Part shown: positions 32,516 to 38,669 of the stretch, one piece after another
Layout: the number at the start of each line of letters is the position of its first letter
How positions within the stretch are numbered: the first letter of the stretch is position 1
Source of the DNA: Dyella sp. GSA-30
GTDB taxonomy: Bacteria; Pseudomonadota; Gammaproteobacteria; Xanthomonadales; Rhodanobacteraceae
Reading direction: 5' to 3'
Assembly (NCBI RefSeq): GCF_027924605.1
Contig: NZ_AP027042.1
Location: 907,524 to 971,523 of the forward strand
DNA length: 64,000 nucleotides
Program-made: the position numbers and the translations under genes
The notes under the pieces: generated by a model
Seen by the model: only the letters and a program-made list of their open reading frames with translations
Database searches by the model: none
Told to the model about the DNA's origin: nothing

Positions 32516-32860
32516 ATGGTTAACCATCAAGTAGCTTTTCCTGATGATGAAAACGGCGACGTGTTGCGCCAGATGACCGAGCAGGGCGACAACCTGGAGA
32601 CACCGCGCGAAATCGACTTCTCGGTCATCTTTCCCACCGAAGACGCTGCACTGAAGTTTGCGGTCCTGCTCTTGCGCAACGGCCAGAAAGTGTCGTTCTC
32701 CGAATACGAAGAACACGACGAACTGCCGTGGCAGGTCCAGGCCCATCCTTTCATGGTCCCCACCCACGAAAATATTTCCGGTTACGAGGCGTTGCTGGCG
32801 GAAGAGGCCGAAGCGTTTGCCGGGCAGAACGATGGCTGGGGATGTGAAATTCAGCAATGA
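32516..32860 (+). CDS. RraB-like ribonuclease E inhibitor family protein
   Basis: 114 residues from ATG 32516; a GTG at 32492 would add eight residues. RraB fold signature (PF06877): FPDDENGDVLRQMTEQGDNLETPREIDFSVIFPTEDAALKFA, then KVSFSEYEEHDELPWQVQAHPFMVPTHENISGYEALLAEEAE. The many acidic residues are typical. E. coli RraB binds the degradosome scaffold of RNase E; the same role is inferred. Overlaps the convergent hydroxylase-WD40 gene by ten bases. Confidence 0.9.
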   Translation: MVNHQVAFPDDENGDVLRQMTEQGDNLETPREIDFSVIFPTEDAALKFAVLLLRNGQKVSFSEYEEHDELPWQVQAHPFMVPTHENISGYEALLAEEAEAFAGQNDGWGCEIQQ

Positions 32861-34404
32861 GCGGAACGGCGGTGCGGCAACGTCCAACGAAGCTGCCCGT
32901 CGTATCCACAACTCACCCTCGCGCCATGGCGAAGCTCAAGCACGTCGGTCACGAAGTTTCCATGCATTTCTTCGTGCTTGAGCACCAGCGCCGGATAACT
33001 CCAGATGCACAGGCGGTTGTCTTCCCCACAGGTGACGAGCGAACCATCGCGCAGAAACCTGATTCGCCGGATGGCAGCATCGTGCGCCTTGAAGAATCCC
33101 ACCTCCCTTGCGCCTCCCTGATCCATCCGCCAAAGCGTCAGGCCGCCTTTTGCATCGCCCGCCGCCAGGGAACAGGCATTCTCTTGACCGGTCCGACACG
33201 AAGCGATGCTCCGCAACGGATGCTTGCAGCGTAACGCGAGGAGACATTCGCGCGTAGCGAGGTCCCAGATTCGTACGCTGCCGTCTTCCGATGCCGTTGC
33301 CAACCGGTCATCACCGAGATCCACCATTGCCCAGACCCATCCCTCATGGCCTGTAAATTCCTGCAGGCACTTTCCCTCGTCAGACCATAGGCGGATGGTG
33401 TGATCGGCGGCGCCTGTAGCCAGGTTTTCCCCTGGCAAGCGAACCAGCGAAAGTACGGCCGCATCGTGTGCCGTGATGGACCGAATGCAACGCTGCGTCG
33501 TGATGTCCCAATAGCGAAGCGTGCGGTCGCGTGAAACCGAGGCGATGACGCCTGCGGCACATTCAGTCAGGCCGAGTACCGACTGGTCATGGCCGATGAG
33601 TGTGACACTCGGTTCGCCCTGCGGATGCCAGATACGTATCTTTCCATCGCGTCCTCCGCTCGCAACGCGGCCGTCGCTGAGTTCGGCAAGTGTCCAGATA
33701 TAGCCCTGATGCAGCGAAGAAGTAGCGTGCTCTTGCACAGAACCGCGCTGAAACAGTAGATCGCTACGTAATACATACTTGGTGCCGGCGGTAACTTCTT
33801 CGCCTGCATGCCAGATGTCATGCTCGAAAAGAATCAGACTGCCCATTCGCGGTCGAATACGGGTGATGACGTTCGAAGCTTCTTCGCCGCCGGCTGGTCC
33901 TGCCGAATAGAACAAGGTGTCGCCGCCCTCGAAATCATCGCCATCGGTCAGGTAAATCATGAAGGTGAGCATGGAGCGACAATCGACTCCCCGGTGATGC
34001 ACCCCATCCTGATGAATATGAAACTGCTGCCCGGGTCGATACCGGCAAAGGCGGAAACGCTCATTGATGCTTCTTGGCTTCCAGCCTGCGAGGACATCGT
34101 CCGGTAGCAGGCATTCCATGCCGGCAGGGACCAGATGGCCAAGGCGTTCCAGCAATCGCCTGGCAAGTTCCGGATCATTCGAGACTTGCCTGTCGTTGTT
34201 TCTATACGAGGGTGGGTAATCCAGCTCGGCGCTGCAGAAGCCCCGGTCCTCGGCGGCATCGATCAGCTCGCTGCATTCGGCGGGCGATAAAAAGCCTGGA
34301 ATCAATACACAGCGCCCCAGGTCTGGCGGTAGCGGATGTTCGAGCATTCCGTGCCGGTTGCTACCCAAATCGAGGCCGTTTTTCTTATGACTCACTGCGA
34401 CCAT
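32851..34404 (-). CDS. prolyl 4-hydroxylase-like 2OG-Fe(II) dioxygenase fused to a seven-blade WD40 propeller
   Basis: 517 residues from ATG 34404 (GGTGAGG site). Residues ~30-220 form a P4H-type domain: FLSPAECSELIDAAE, RYRPGQQFHIHQD with iron ligands His131 and Asp133, MLTFMIYLTDGDDFEGGDT, then HDIWHAGEEVTAGTKYVLRSDLL with His199 and the 2OG-binding Lys209. Residues ~233-507 hold seven WD-type repeats starting near 233, 270, 311, 351, 391, 439 and 480, many ending in IRIW/YWD/IWD. Seven blades make a closed propeller, usually a protein-binding platform, so it may bind its own hydroxylation target. No signal peptide. Divergent from a TetR gene across a gap with two related palindromes. Substrate unknown. 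Confidence 0.9.
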   Translation of the reverse strand: MVAVSHKKNGLDLGSNRHGMLEHPLPPDLGRCVLIPGFLSPAECSELIDAAEDRGFCSAELDYPPSYRNNDRQVSNDPELARRLLERLGHLVPAGMECLLPDDVLAGWKPRSINERFRLCRYRPGQQFHIHQDGVHHRGVDCRSMLTFMIYLTDGDDFEGGDTLFYSAGPAGGEEASNVITRIRPRMGSLILFEHDIWHAGEEVTAGTKYVLRSDLLFQRGSVQEHATSSLHQGYIWTLAELSDGRVASGGRDGKIRIWHPQGEPSVTLIGHDQSVLGLTECAAGVIASVSRDRTLRYWDITTQRCIRSITAHDAAVLSLVRLPGENLATGAADHTIRLWSDEGKCLQEFTGHEGWVWAMVDLGDDRLATASEDGSVRIWDLATRECLLALRCKHPLRSIASCRTGQENACSLAAGDAKGGLTLWRMDQGGAREVGFFKAHDAAIRRIRFLRDGSLVTCGEDNRLCIWSYPALVLKHEEMHGNFVTDVLELRHGARVSCGYDGQLRWTLPHRRSAHC

Positions 34405-34418
34405 GACCTCACCATTTA

Positions 34419-34434
34419 TTGGTTGATCAACCAA
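34419..34434. promoter_or_regulatory. operator-like palindrome A
   Basis: Perfect 16-base palindrome TTGGTTGATCAACCAA, 15 bases upstream of the hydroxylase-WD40 start. The flanks (ATTT before, TTAT after) are shared with palindrome B 62 bases away, so the similarity extends over ~30 bases. Expected binding site of the divergent TetR protein. Confidence 0.8.
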
Positions 34435-34480
34435 GTTATGACGGACGTTACTCGTTCCAGGGCTGGCAATCAACTATTTC

Positions 34481-34496
34481 TTGGGTGTATAACCAA
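34481..34496. promoter_or_regulatory. operator-like palindrome B
   Basis: TTGGGTGTATAACCAA, 12 of 16 bases identical to palindrome A, with the same ATTT and TTAT flanks; 20 bases upstream of the TetR ATG. Together A and B could bind two TetR dimers on the same DNA face (62 bases, about six turns) and control both directions. Confidence 0.75.
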
Positions 34497-34516
34497 ATTA
34501 TAAAAAAGGACCCGCC

Positions 34517-35188
34517 ATGCCTCGCAAACCCAACACCGAGCTTCGCCGGCAGCAAATTGTCGATGGCTTGCTCAAGACCATCGCCACCCAGGGCTATGCA
34601 GGAGCTACCGTCCAGGCGATTGCAGCTGCCTCCGGGCTGGCGCCGGGGCTGATCCACTATCACTTCCACGACAAGCGCGAGATCCTGGTCGCGCTGGTAG
34701 ACCAGCTGGCCGGCTATGCATCGCATCGATTCGAATCCCGCGCCAGCATGGCGACCACCGCCCAGGGGCGACTGCGCGCCTATATCGATGCGCGTCTGGC
34801 CTATGGCGCCGATGCCAATCCAGACGCGGTGGCGGCCTGGGTAATGATCGGTGCGGAAGCCATACGCGATCCCGACGTGCGCGAGATCTACCAACGCGCA
34901 GTAAGCCAGGAGATCGCGCTGGTCAAGAAACTGCTCAAGGCGCAGCTTGTCGATAGCGGCAAGCGCGTGCGCAAGCTCGATGCCTTTGCAGCCGGCCTGC
35001 TGGCTTTCGTGGAAGGTGTGTTTGTACTCGCCAGCAATGCCCGAACTATCGTGCCGACGGGCTTTGCGGCGGACATGGCGAATGAATGGGTTCAGCGGTA
35101 TATCGCAGCGGAGCCGCCGGCCAATCAGCATGGCAAGCCTGATGGACCGGTTCCTTCTGTACGCAAGACGCGGGGGAGCGCGAAATGA
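34517..35188 (+). CDS. TetR family transcriptional regulator
   Basis: 223 residues; ATG 34517 follows AAAAAGGA. HTH: ELRRQQIVDGLLKTIATQGYAGATVQAIAAASGLAPGLIHYHFHDKREIL (~8-58), BetI-like in style. The ligand domain is helical (~70-200); the tail is Pro/Lys rich. Its TGA overlaps the HD gene start by four bases. It very likely represses itself, the HD gene and the divergent hydroxylase-WD40 gene via palindromes A and B. Ligand unknown. Confidence 0.93.
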   Translation: MPRKPNTELRRQQIVDGLLKTIATQGYAGATVQAIAAASGLAPGLIHYHFHDKREILVALVDQLAGYASHRFESRASMATTAQGRLRAYIDARLAYGADANPDAVAAWVMIGAEAIRDPDVREIYQRAVSQEIALVKKLLKAQLVDSGKRVRKLDAFAAGLLAFVEGVFVLASNARTIVPTGFAADMANEWVQRYIAAEPPANQHGKPDGPVPSVRKTRGSAK

Positions 35189-35853
35189 ACAAAGCCCTGG
35201 CGAAGGATATTGACCATCCGGCGCGTTTTGTCGCTACCGACTTCGCGGCTTGGTCCCGCGCCTGGGCCGGGCTCGGTGTCGCATTCGCGTCCAGGAACGT
35301 TTTCGACGAACTGCTAAGCAGCTATGGCGAGGCCCATCGCGCTTATCACACTCGTCAACATCTGGAGGATTGCCTCGTATCATTGGACGAGGTGCGTGAA
35401 CAGTGCGACCACGCGGATGAAGTCGCCATGGCCCTGTGGTTTCACGATGCCATCTACAAGCCGCGTCGCAGCGACAACGAAGCGGCAAGTGCTGATTGGC
35501 TGACACGCGTAGCTCGCGATTCAGGCGTGGTGGAATCTTCAGTCACGCGAATGCATGCTCTGATCATGGCGACACGGCACACGGCGGCTATTGATGAGCA
35601 TGATGCGAAAGTGCTTGTCGATATTGATCTGTCGATTCTTGGGGCGCCCGCCGAGCGATTCGACGCGTACGAGATGCAAGTGAGGCAAGAATACCGCTGG
35701 GTACCTGGCCCCATCTATCGAGCCAAGCGTGCCGACATCCTGCAAGGCTTCATGGATCGGCGCACTATCTACGAGACGCCGCACTTCCGCGCCCGGCTTG
35801 AGGAAGCGGCGCGAGAGAATATGCTTCGTTCGATCTCGTTGTTACGGCGTTAG
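35185..35853 (+). CDS. HD-domain metal-dependent phosphohydrolase-like protein
   Basis: 222 residues, ATGA overlap with the TetR gene. HD signature: YGEAHRAYHTRQHLEDCL (His55, His59), EVAMALWFHDAIYKPRRSDNE with the His87-Asp88 pair, then MATRHTA...DAKVLVDIDLSILG with the distal Asp. This is the COG4339 group often labelled 'NMDA receptor subunit-like' in databases; that name is an annotation artefact. Phosphohydrolase activity on a nucleotide-type substrate is inferred only. Its stop overlaps the convergent secreted protein gene. Confidence 0.9.
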   Translation: MNKALAKDIDHPARFVATDFAAWSRAWAGLGVAFASRNVFDELLSSYGEAHRAYHTRQHLEDCLVSLDEVREQCDHADEVAMALWFHDAIYKPRRSDNEAASADWLTRVARDSGVVESSVTRMHALIMATRHTAAIDEHDAKVLVDIDLSILGAPAERFDAYEMQVRQEYRWVPGPIYRAKRADILQGFMDRRTIYETPHFRARLEEAARENMLRSISLLRR

Positions 35854-36143
35854 TGGCTGCAGCTATAGATCGCGACATAACGCACGAGCGAGTCGGCGTG
35901 CTGGTCAACGCCCTCGGTCACCGGCATCGCCGTATGCGACACGATTTGTTTGAGCTTCGCATCGCCGGCACAGCCGCGTCGCGCTTCCTGTGCGCAAGGA
36001 GCATCTGTGGCATGGGTAAGCGTGCACTGGACCGTGACTTGATGCGCTTGGGTGCCGAGGGTCGGTGACTGCGTCGCCTGGGCGGATGCATAGCCCGAAA
36101 ATCCCAGTACAACCGGCAAGACCAACGTCCATGGGTGACTCAT
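35850..36143 (-). CDS. small secreted protein of unknown function
   Basis: 97 residues; AGGAGAGGACG before ATG 36143. Signal peptide ends GYASAQ. The mature ~75 residues contain four Cys (QCTLTHATDAPCAQEARRGCAGDAK and YSCSH), enough for two disulfides, consistent with a periplasmic protein. No family recognised. Convergent with the HD gene (4-base overlap). Confidence 0.75.
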   Translation of the reverse strand: MSHPWTLVLPVVLGFSGYASAQATQSPTLGTQAHQVTVQCTLTHATDAPCAQEARRGCAGDAKLKQIVSHTAMPVTEGVDQHADSLVRYVAIYSCSH

Positions 36144-36308: not shown

Positions 36309-38669
36309 ATGGCCTGGCTGGCCAGTCGGCCAAAAACGGCCAGCCGCTCCCCCATGACACCCTGCAGAGTCCGCGCCATGAGCAATGAAACCGAGATCCC
36401 AGGCGTATCCGAGTACGAAGGTCCTGCCGGTGGCTGGGGTGCGCTGCGGGCCGTGGCCAAGGCCATCAGCGGCCAGCTCGCGGTGGGTCGGGAAGCCTTG
36501 GCGCTAAGGAAGATGAATCAGCCGGACGGGTTCGATTGCCCTGGCTGCGCCTGGCCCGACCCCAAGCACACCAGTTCTTTCGAGTTCTGCGAGAACGGCG
36601 CCAAGGCGGTGTCGTGGGAAGCCACGGCCAAGCGCGTCAAGCCGGAATTCTTTCAGGCCAACACGGTGACATCGTTGTGGCAGTTGAGCGATTACGCACT
36701 CGAAGGCCTTGGCCGCCTGACCCATCCGCTGGCCTACGACGCGGGTAGCGACACCTATGTGGCGATCGGCTGGGACGATGCGATGCAACGCATCGGCACT
36801 GCGCTACGTGCGCTGCCCGATCCGCGCATGGCCGAGTTCTATACCTCCGGCCGTACCTCGAACGAAGCGGCATTCCTGTATCAGGCGTTTGTGCGCGAGT
36901 ACGGCTGCAACAACTTCCCCGATTGCTCGAACATGTGCCACGAGGCCACTAGCGTGGGCTTGCCCCAGTCGATCGGCGTCGGCAAGGGCACGGTCACGAT
37001 CGAGGATTTCGATCATTGCGATGCGGTCTTTTGCATTGGCCACAATCCGGGCACCAACCATCCGCGCATGCTTGCGACCTTGCGCGAGGTCGCCAAGCGC
37101 AACGTTCCCATCGTCGCGATCAATCCGTTGCCCGAGCGTGGCCTGGAGCGATTCACCTCGCCGCAAAGCCCGGTCGAGATGATGACGGGCGGCGAGACGC
37201 CGTTGGCCACGACGTATTACCAGGTGAGCTGCGGCGGCGATCTGGCGTTTCTCAAGGGCATGATGAAATGGCTGCTGGACGCCGATGCGCAGGACATCGC
37301 CGGCGGTGGGCAGGGTCTGCTCGATCGTGCGTTCATTGCGGAGAACACGACCGGCTTCGAGGCGCTGGCCAGCGACCTCCGTGCCACGCAGTGGAGCGAT
37401 ATCGAAAGCAAGAGCGGGCTGTCCCGTGCCGATATCGAGCACGCCGGTTCGATCTACGCGCAGGCCAAGCGCGTCATCATCTGCTACGGCATGGGCATCA
37501 CCCAGCATCGCCACGGCACGCAGAATGTGCAGCAGCTGGCGAACCTGCTGATGCTGCGAGGCAATCTCGGCCGCGAAGGCGCCGGCATCTGCCCGCTGCG
37601 CGGTCATTCCAATGTGCAGGGCGATCGCACGGTCGGCATTACCGAGAAACCCGATGCCGCGCTCATCAAAGGCATGAAGCTCGCGTTCGGTTTCGATACA
37701 TCGCCGGAACACGGCCACGATGCCGTGGCTGCGGTCAAGGCGATTCGCGACGGTCAGTCCAGAGCGTTGATATGTCTGGGCGGTAACCTTGCGGTGGCGA
37801 TGCCCGATCCCGACGCTACCTTCGATGCGATGCGCAAGCTCGACCTAGCCGTGCATATCGCCACCAAGCTCAATCGCTCGCATCTGATCCTGGCCAAGGA
37901 GTCGATCATCCTGCCGTGCCTGGGCCGCACTGAAATCGATATGCAGGCCGAAGGCGCGCAGTCGGTGACGGTGGAGGATTCCATGTCGATGGTCCACGCC
38001 TCGCGCGGCGGCCTCACACCGGCCTCGGAATATCTGCGTTCGGAGCCCTGGATCGTCGCCCAGATGGCCAAGGCGACTCTGCCCGACACACGGGTGGATT
38101 GGGATCACCTGATCGCCGATTACGATCGCATCCGTGACAAGATCGAAATCGTGTTTCCGGCCTTTGCCAATTTCAATCAGCGCGTACGCGAGCCGGGCGG
38201 CTTCCGTCTGTTTATCGCGGCATCCGAGCGCAAATGGAACACGCCGGACGGCAAGGCGCATTTCCTGGTGGCGCCGGGCATCGAGGAAGACGATGGCCTC
38301 GAAGATGGCACGCTGGTGCTGACCACGCTGCGCGCGCACGACCAGTACAACACCACCATTTACAGTCTCAACGATCGTTATCGCGGCATTACCGGTCGCC
38401 GCGATGTGATCTTCATGCATGCCGACGACCTCGCCGCGCGCGGCCTCAAACACGGCGATCGCATCGTCGTCGAAACCTCTGCAACCCGGGCCAAGCGTTC
38501 GGTGGTTGGCTTTACCGCCGTGTCCTATCCGATCGCCCGCGGCACGGTGGCGATGTATTACCCGGAAGGCAACTGCCTGGTAGGGCTGGACGACCATGAC
38601 CCCCAATCGGGCACGCCGTCGTACAAGTCCGTTCCGGTGGTCATACGGGAGTGGCGAGAGGCGTCGTGA
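36309..38669 (+). CDS. FdhF/YdeP family molybdopterin oxidoreductase
   Basis: 786 residues from ATG 36309 (GGAG eight bases upstream); an internal ATG at 36378 (MSNETEIPGVSEYEGPAGGW) is close to the start of E. coli YdeP and may be the true one. Strongly YdeP-like: GFDCPGCAWPDPKH (~80), FYTSGRTSNEAAFLYQ, NFPDCSNMCHEATSVGL, IGHNPGTNHPRML, ICYGMGITQHRHGTQNVQQL, GICPLRGHSNVQGDRTVG, and YNTTIYSLNDRYRG near the C-terminus. It should bind bis-MGD; ydeP is linked to acid resistance in E. coli. No FdhD or electron-transfer partner gene is adjacent, so the redox partner is unknown. Confidence 0.93.
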   Translation: MAWLASRPKTASRSPMTPCRVRAMSNETEIPGVSEYEGPAGGWGALRAVAKAISGQLAVGREALALRKMNQPDGFDCPGCAWPDPKHTSSFEFCENGAKAVSWEATAKRVKPEFFQANTVTSLWQLSDYALEGLGRLTHPLAYDAGSDTYVAIGWDDAMQRIGTALRALPDPRMAEFYTSGRTSNEAAFLYQAFVREYGCNNFPDCSNMCHEATSVGLPQSIGVGKGTVTIEDFDHCDAVFCIGHNPGTNHPRMLATLREVAKRNVPIVAINPLPERGLERFTSPQSPVEMMTGGETPLATTYYQVSCGGDLAFLKGMMKWLLDADAQDIAGGGQGLLDRAFIAENTTGFEALASDLRATQWSDIESKSGLSRADIEHAGSIYAQAKRVIICYGMGITQHRHGTQNVQQLANLLMLRGNLGREGAGICPLRGHSNVQGDRTVGITEKPDAALIKGMKLAFGFDTSPEHGHDAVAAVKAIRDGQSRALICLGGNLAVAMPDPDATFDAMRKLDLAVHIATKLNRSHLILAKESIILPCLGRTEIDMQAEGAQSVTVEDSMSMVHASRGGLTPASEYLRSEPWIVAQMAKATLPDTRVDWDHLIADYDRIRDKIEIVFPAFANFNQRVREPGGFRLFIAASERKWNTPDGKAHFLVAPGIEEDDGLEDGTLVLTTLRAHDQYNTTIYSLNDRYRGITGRRDVIFMHADDLAARGLKHGDRIVVETSATRAKRSVVGFTAVSYPIARGTVAMYYPEGNCLVGLDDHDPQSGTPSYKSVPVVIREWREAS

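Follow-up and report, generated by a model that had tools for sequence, protein, structure and literature searches.

The divergent locus and its paired sites

How the gene for a 2-oxoglutarate (2OG)-Fe(II) oxygenase fused to a WD40 propeller (here, hydroxylase-WD40) is controlled, and whether that control extends beyond its own locus, are the questions raised by a short stretch of noncoding DNA near the middle of the window, the window being the whole 64-kb stretch of DNA that was analysed. The gene is transcribed divergently from a gene for a TetR-family regulator, which is followed by a gene for an HD-like protein, and the gap between the two divergent genes is 112 bp (34405-34516), under 200 bp. 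It contains two related sites, O1 and O2. The features concerned are listed here by position.

32851..34404, minus strand: 2OG-Fe(II) oxygenase fused to a WD40 propeller (PF13640, 7.6e-13; PF00400, 1.4e-34)
34419..34434, no strand: putative operator O1, 14 bp upstream of the hydroxylase start, kept in 16/16 loci
34445..34473, minus strand: putative hydroxylase promoter, -35 TTGATT (34473-34468), 17-bp spacer, -10 TAACGT (34450-34445), a consensus match only
34464..34493, plus strand: possible tetR promoter, TGGCAA, 18 bp, TATAAC, with the -10 inside O2; weak
34481..34496, no strand: putative operator O2, 20 bp upstream of the TetR start, kept in 16/16 loci
34517..35188, plus strand: TetR-family regulator with a BetI-type C-terminal domain (PF00440, 4.6e-11; PF13977, 1.9e-9)
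35185..35853, plus strand: HD-superfamily metal-dependent hydrolase-like protein (fold and invariant residues)

A sequence-only reading of this DNA had described a perfect palindrome and a partner matching it at 12 of 16 bases, one close to each divergent start, and both sites are exactly as it described them. O1 (34419-34434), TTGGTTGATCAACCAA, is a perfect 16-bp palindrome located 14 bp from the probable hydroxylase ATG, and O2 (34481-34496), TTGGGTGTATAACCAA, which lies 20 bp from the TetR ATG, shares 12/16 bases with O1 and 12/16 with its own reverse complement. The distance of 62 bases given in that reading is correct from start to start, but the gap between O1 and O2 is 46 bp. Likewise, the shared ATTT and TTAT flanks are seen in the window but are not kept in orthologs, where only the TTGGT-N6-ACCAA core is retained. 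When taken with their flanks as 29-mers, the two sites are 76% identical at 62 nt start to start, and a 29-mer repeat of equal quality arose in 0/1000 shuffles.

It could be argued that O1 and O2 are chance palindromes rather than protein sites, as 52 of 20,000 shuffled versions of the 112-bp region (~0.3%) contained some perfect 16-bp palindrome, and four occur in the 64-kb window. However, just 3 of these 20,000 shuffles gave two TTGGT-N6-ACCAA-like sites and only 1 gave a palindrome accompanied by a 12/16 partner, and the pair, its spacing, and its position are all kept in 16 loci. The probability that remains for a chance origin is negligible, and we consider it ruled out by the shuffles together with the conservation described below.

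Conservation of the paired sites

TetR orthologs were found in Dyella, Tahibacter, another Rhodanobacteraceae bacterium, five Pseudomonas, two Achromobacter, Chitinimonas, and Massilia, plus further genomes, and 16 distinct loci were examined. Paired TTGGT-N6-ACCAA sites, each with nine or more of the 10 core bases, are present just upstream of TetR, 58-62 bp apart, in all 16 of the 16 loci with an orthologous TetR, with the proteins sharing as little as 47% identity; in Tahibacter the first site has a second, overlapping copy, which gives spacings of 59 or 55 bp. When the 16 regions are aligned, nearly all invariant columns are operator half-sites, the others being CAA and TA in the spacer, which in the minus-strand reading supply the TTG to the -35 and the TA to the -10 of the hydroxylase promoter that is predicted. 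An absence of synteny in relatives had been named beforehand as evidence against a conserved module, and the comparison instead recovered both the sites and the divergent arrangement in 16 loci.

Six full-length orthologs of hydroxylase-WD40, including that of the window, were recovered from 398 genomes of the order. In G667 and G685, the hydroxylase-WD40 gene has no TetR gene close by and no site in its flanks. Neither genome yielded a TetR ortholog at E 1e-20, and because both are from one genus these loci may represent one event. Massilia retains TetR, HD, and both sites and has a small membrane-protein-like gene in place of the hydroxylase. Since Massilia keeps the sites without the hydroxylase, and G667 and G685, which lack TetR, have none, the sites follow TetR rather than the hydroxylase.

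The same comparison bears on the suggestion that O1 and O2 serve another regulator encoded elsewhere, with tetR as just another target. Such palindromes do suit several TetR-family regulators, and nothing more direct speaks for this suggestion; the sites are missing where TetR is missing, are present where the hydroxylase has been replaced, and have no second exact copy in the genome, and we consider it very improbable. It is very likely, given the strong support from this comparison across loci for what the sequence-only reading had proposed, that O1 and O2 are operators of the neighbouring TetR.

The G667 and G685 genes (L089:5105-7063 and L090:4977-6908) encode hydroxylase-WD40 proteins more than 60% identical in the oxygenase domain and stand without TetR, adjacent HD, or operators. 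In Massilia, the gene facing TetR, HD, and the paired operators (L043:5390-5885) is for a small membrane-anchored protein, as if the output under control had been exchanged, and the occurrence of the same switch facing a different gene suggests that the sensor can pair with other outputs.

A pattern search of the 5.5-Mb genome found the exact motif a single time, at this locus, and it also occurs once, at the TetR locus, in each of G773, G774, G775, and G777. Matches with one mismatch in the window's own genome numbered 78, versus 75 for a reversed-pattern control. With a single exact motif and a one-mismatch count at the control rate, this locus appears to be the regulator's only target, and a wider regulon was rejected. 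HD paralogs elsewhere in other genomes had no pair of sites upstream.

The regulator and the proposed switch

The regulator carries a TetR_N HTH domain (PF00440, 42.8 bits against a cutoff of 24) and a BetI-type C-terminal domain (PF13977, 38.2 bits against 27). The scores against the BetI equivalogs are 67.3 bits versus 201.3 (TIGR03384) and 70.3 versus 118 (NF001978), so far under the cutoff that BetI proper, the choline-sensing regulator, was rejected.

We think it highly probable that the locus is a local, autoregulating TetR divergon like tetR/tetA, a judgement that draws on sequence comparison and applies to the regulatory statement and not to the substrate of the enzyme. The TetR dimer encoded at 34517 would bind O1 and O2. 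If the hydroxylase transcript begins 7 bp past its predicted -10, O1 would occupy approximately positions +5 to +20 of that transcript; O2 would overlap the tetR promoter and start. As O1 lies past the hydroxylase -10 and O2 over the tetR promoter, bound dimers would block both of these mutually overlapping promoters, and because the predicted -10 ends 10 bp before O1 in the window (8-10 bp across loci), TetR bound there would sit at the transcription start. A small-molecule ligand would presumably free TetR, turning on hydroxylase-WD40 together with tetR and, where present, HD.

Both predicted promoters in the window are weak consensus matches. A generic promoter scan of the window passed no promoter here, the weak TTGATT-17-TAACGT version included, and for this reason it is conservation that argues for the hydroxylase promoter, whose Pseudomonas counterpart is TTGACA-17-TAGCTT. 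It is not the best match in G032 and the two Achromobacter loci. The position of the possible tetR promoter is not the same in all orthologs.

We infer that TetR represses rather than activates. TetR-family proteins act as activators at times, which counts against this reading. As a rule, however, a TetR regulator encoded within 200 bp of a divergent gene acts as its repressor (PMC3511530). If TetR instead bound O1 and O2 to activate the hydroxylase gene, or controlled one direction only, O2 would be suitably placed, just upstream of the predicted hydroxylase -35 in an activator-like position, and there is a precedent in Ruegeria BetI2, whose effects differ between the two arms of its divergon (PMC12442346). 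Nevertheless, O1 is just downstream of the hydroxylase -10, a position for repression, in at least 12 loci, and both sites are conserved, and we therefore regard activation or one-sided control as improbable and continue to favour repression of both promoters.

The sequence-only reading had suggested that this may be an undescribed small-molecule-responsive system, but the regulatory layout is that of classical tetR/tetA, and this type of control circuit is already known. In both, a TetR gene is divergent from its target across a short intergenic region with two palindromic operators, of 15 bp each in tetR/tetA, and autorepression is presumed (PMC3511530). They differ in operator sequence and in the target, which is a pump in tetR/tetA and an enzyme fused to a propeller here. 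BetI and BetI2 share the BetI-type C-terminal domain, and BetI2 also has two palindromes in a divergon (PMC12442346). In contrast to BetI, the equivalog score here is 67 versus 201 bits, and the immediate neighbours scanned here include no choline or betaine genes; in contrast to BetI2, the motif is TTGGT-N6-ACCAA rather than ATTGACG-CGTCAAT, and the boxes, which overlap in BetI2, are 46 bp apart. The regulatory question is now well posed, with one regulator, two defined operators, and one locus.

The hydroxylase-WD40 and HD proteins

Hydroxylase-WD40 is a protein of 517 residues, with a probable ATG at 34404 on the minus strand, an oxygenase domain at approximately residues 20-220, and a seven-bladed WD40 propeller at approximately 229-514. 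The HxD...H iron triad (H131, D133, and H199) and K209 are invariant in 10 orthologs, and K209 is presumably the 2OG ligand by analogy with P4H. Among solved structures, the sole sequence match is to a prolyl 4-hydroxylase (5c5t, E 2.4e-5). In the AlphaFold2 model (pLDDT 85.7), the predicted propeller matches RACK1/Lis1 with Z ~38 and an rmsd of 1.6-1.7 over 275-281 residues, which says little on the 2OG domain. Like prolyl 4-hydroxylase-like 2OG-Fe(II) oxygenases, the protein has a 2OG-FeII_Oxy_3 domain, HxD...H, and a Lys 10 residues on; unlike them, it has a seven-bladed propeller fused. The chemistry, predicted from the domain match and the invariant residues, would be hydroxylation with Fe(II) and 2-oxoglutarate. 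That the product is a protein or peptide hydroxylase finding its target via the WD40 propeller is our guess from domain content and fold. Among the defence models of PADLOC, the hydroxylase matched only generic 2OG and WD40-region entries, and TetR and HD matched none.

The HD protein has 222 residues, and its gene overlaps tetR, as the sequence-only reading had claimed, by ATGA (35185-35188). It has no Pfam or NCBIfam match, and no solved sequence relative was found. Residues H59, H87, D88, and D148, the putative metal ligands of the all-helical HD fold, are invariant in 9 sequences, and the predicted model (pLDDT 92) gives a full-length match to HD/PDE catalytic domains (Z ~16, rmsd 3.9, 208 aligned). 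Because of the invariant HD residues and this whole-length match of a predicted model, the HD label of the sequence-only reading holds. Identity to members of that fold is ~12%.

Distribution and possible role of the cassette

HD adjoins TetR in 10 of the 15 loci with a flank long enough to check and is missing at G032, Tahibacter, Chitinimonas, and both Achromobacter loci, which makes it an optional member of the cassette. A compact module of hydroxylase-WD40, TetR, and HD had been proposed; the sites and the divergent arrangement are indeed kept, but HD is not obligate. Beyond these three genes, no other conserved neighbours are common across the genera compared, bar single pairs of loci. 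TetR distances correlate with those of the hydroxylase (r=0.95, 0/2000 permutations) and of HD (r=0.98). Besides the window's genome, 2 of 98 relatives and 2 of 298 Pseudomonas genomes have the cassette TetR; a search of 369 genomes of the class added no other case, and a plasmid collection had no match for TetR or the hydroxylase. The cassette is rare and sporadic, and it appears to be inherited as a unit.

A Pseudomonas-like cassette is also present in a genome of the window's own family, G633 (L088:3647-6525). Its TetR shares 73-77% identity with the Pseudomonas proteins but only 50-56% with TetRs from its own family and order, and these values suggest horizontal transfer of the cassette unit, which would account for them.

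As a speculation that we think rather unlikely to hold in full, the cassette may be a horizontally moving, ligand-induced protein-modification unit, in which the WD40-guided 2OG hydroxylase would modify a specific cellular protein, TetR would sense a small molecule, and the HD enzyme would make or destroy that molecule. The ligand and target of the uncharacterised hydroxylase-WD40 enzyme are directly accessible, as a screen against the promoter pair could be used to look for the natural inducer. No report of the operator sequence, of the gene trio, or of the enzyme pair under this control was found in the open-access literature, so this absence is weak evidence.

Two further genes lie downstream of HD in the window. 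Between the HD and YdeP-like genes is a 97-aa ORF (35850-36143, minus strand) that matches no family and whose N-terminus resembles a signal peptide. The YdeP-like gene (36309-38669) encodes a molybdopterin oxidoreductase of the FdhF/YdeP family, from a known subfamily, and adjoins the module without being conserved with it.
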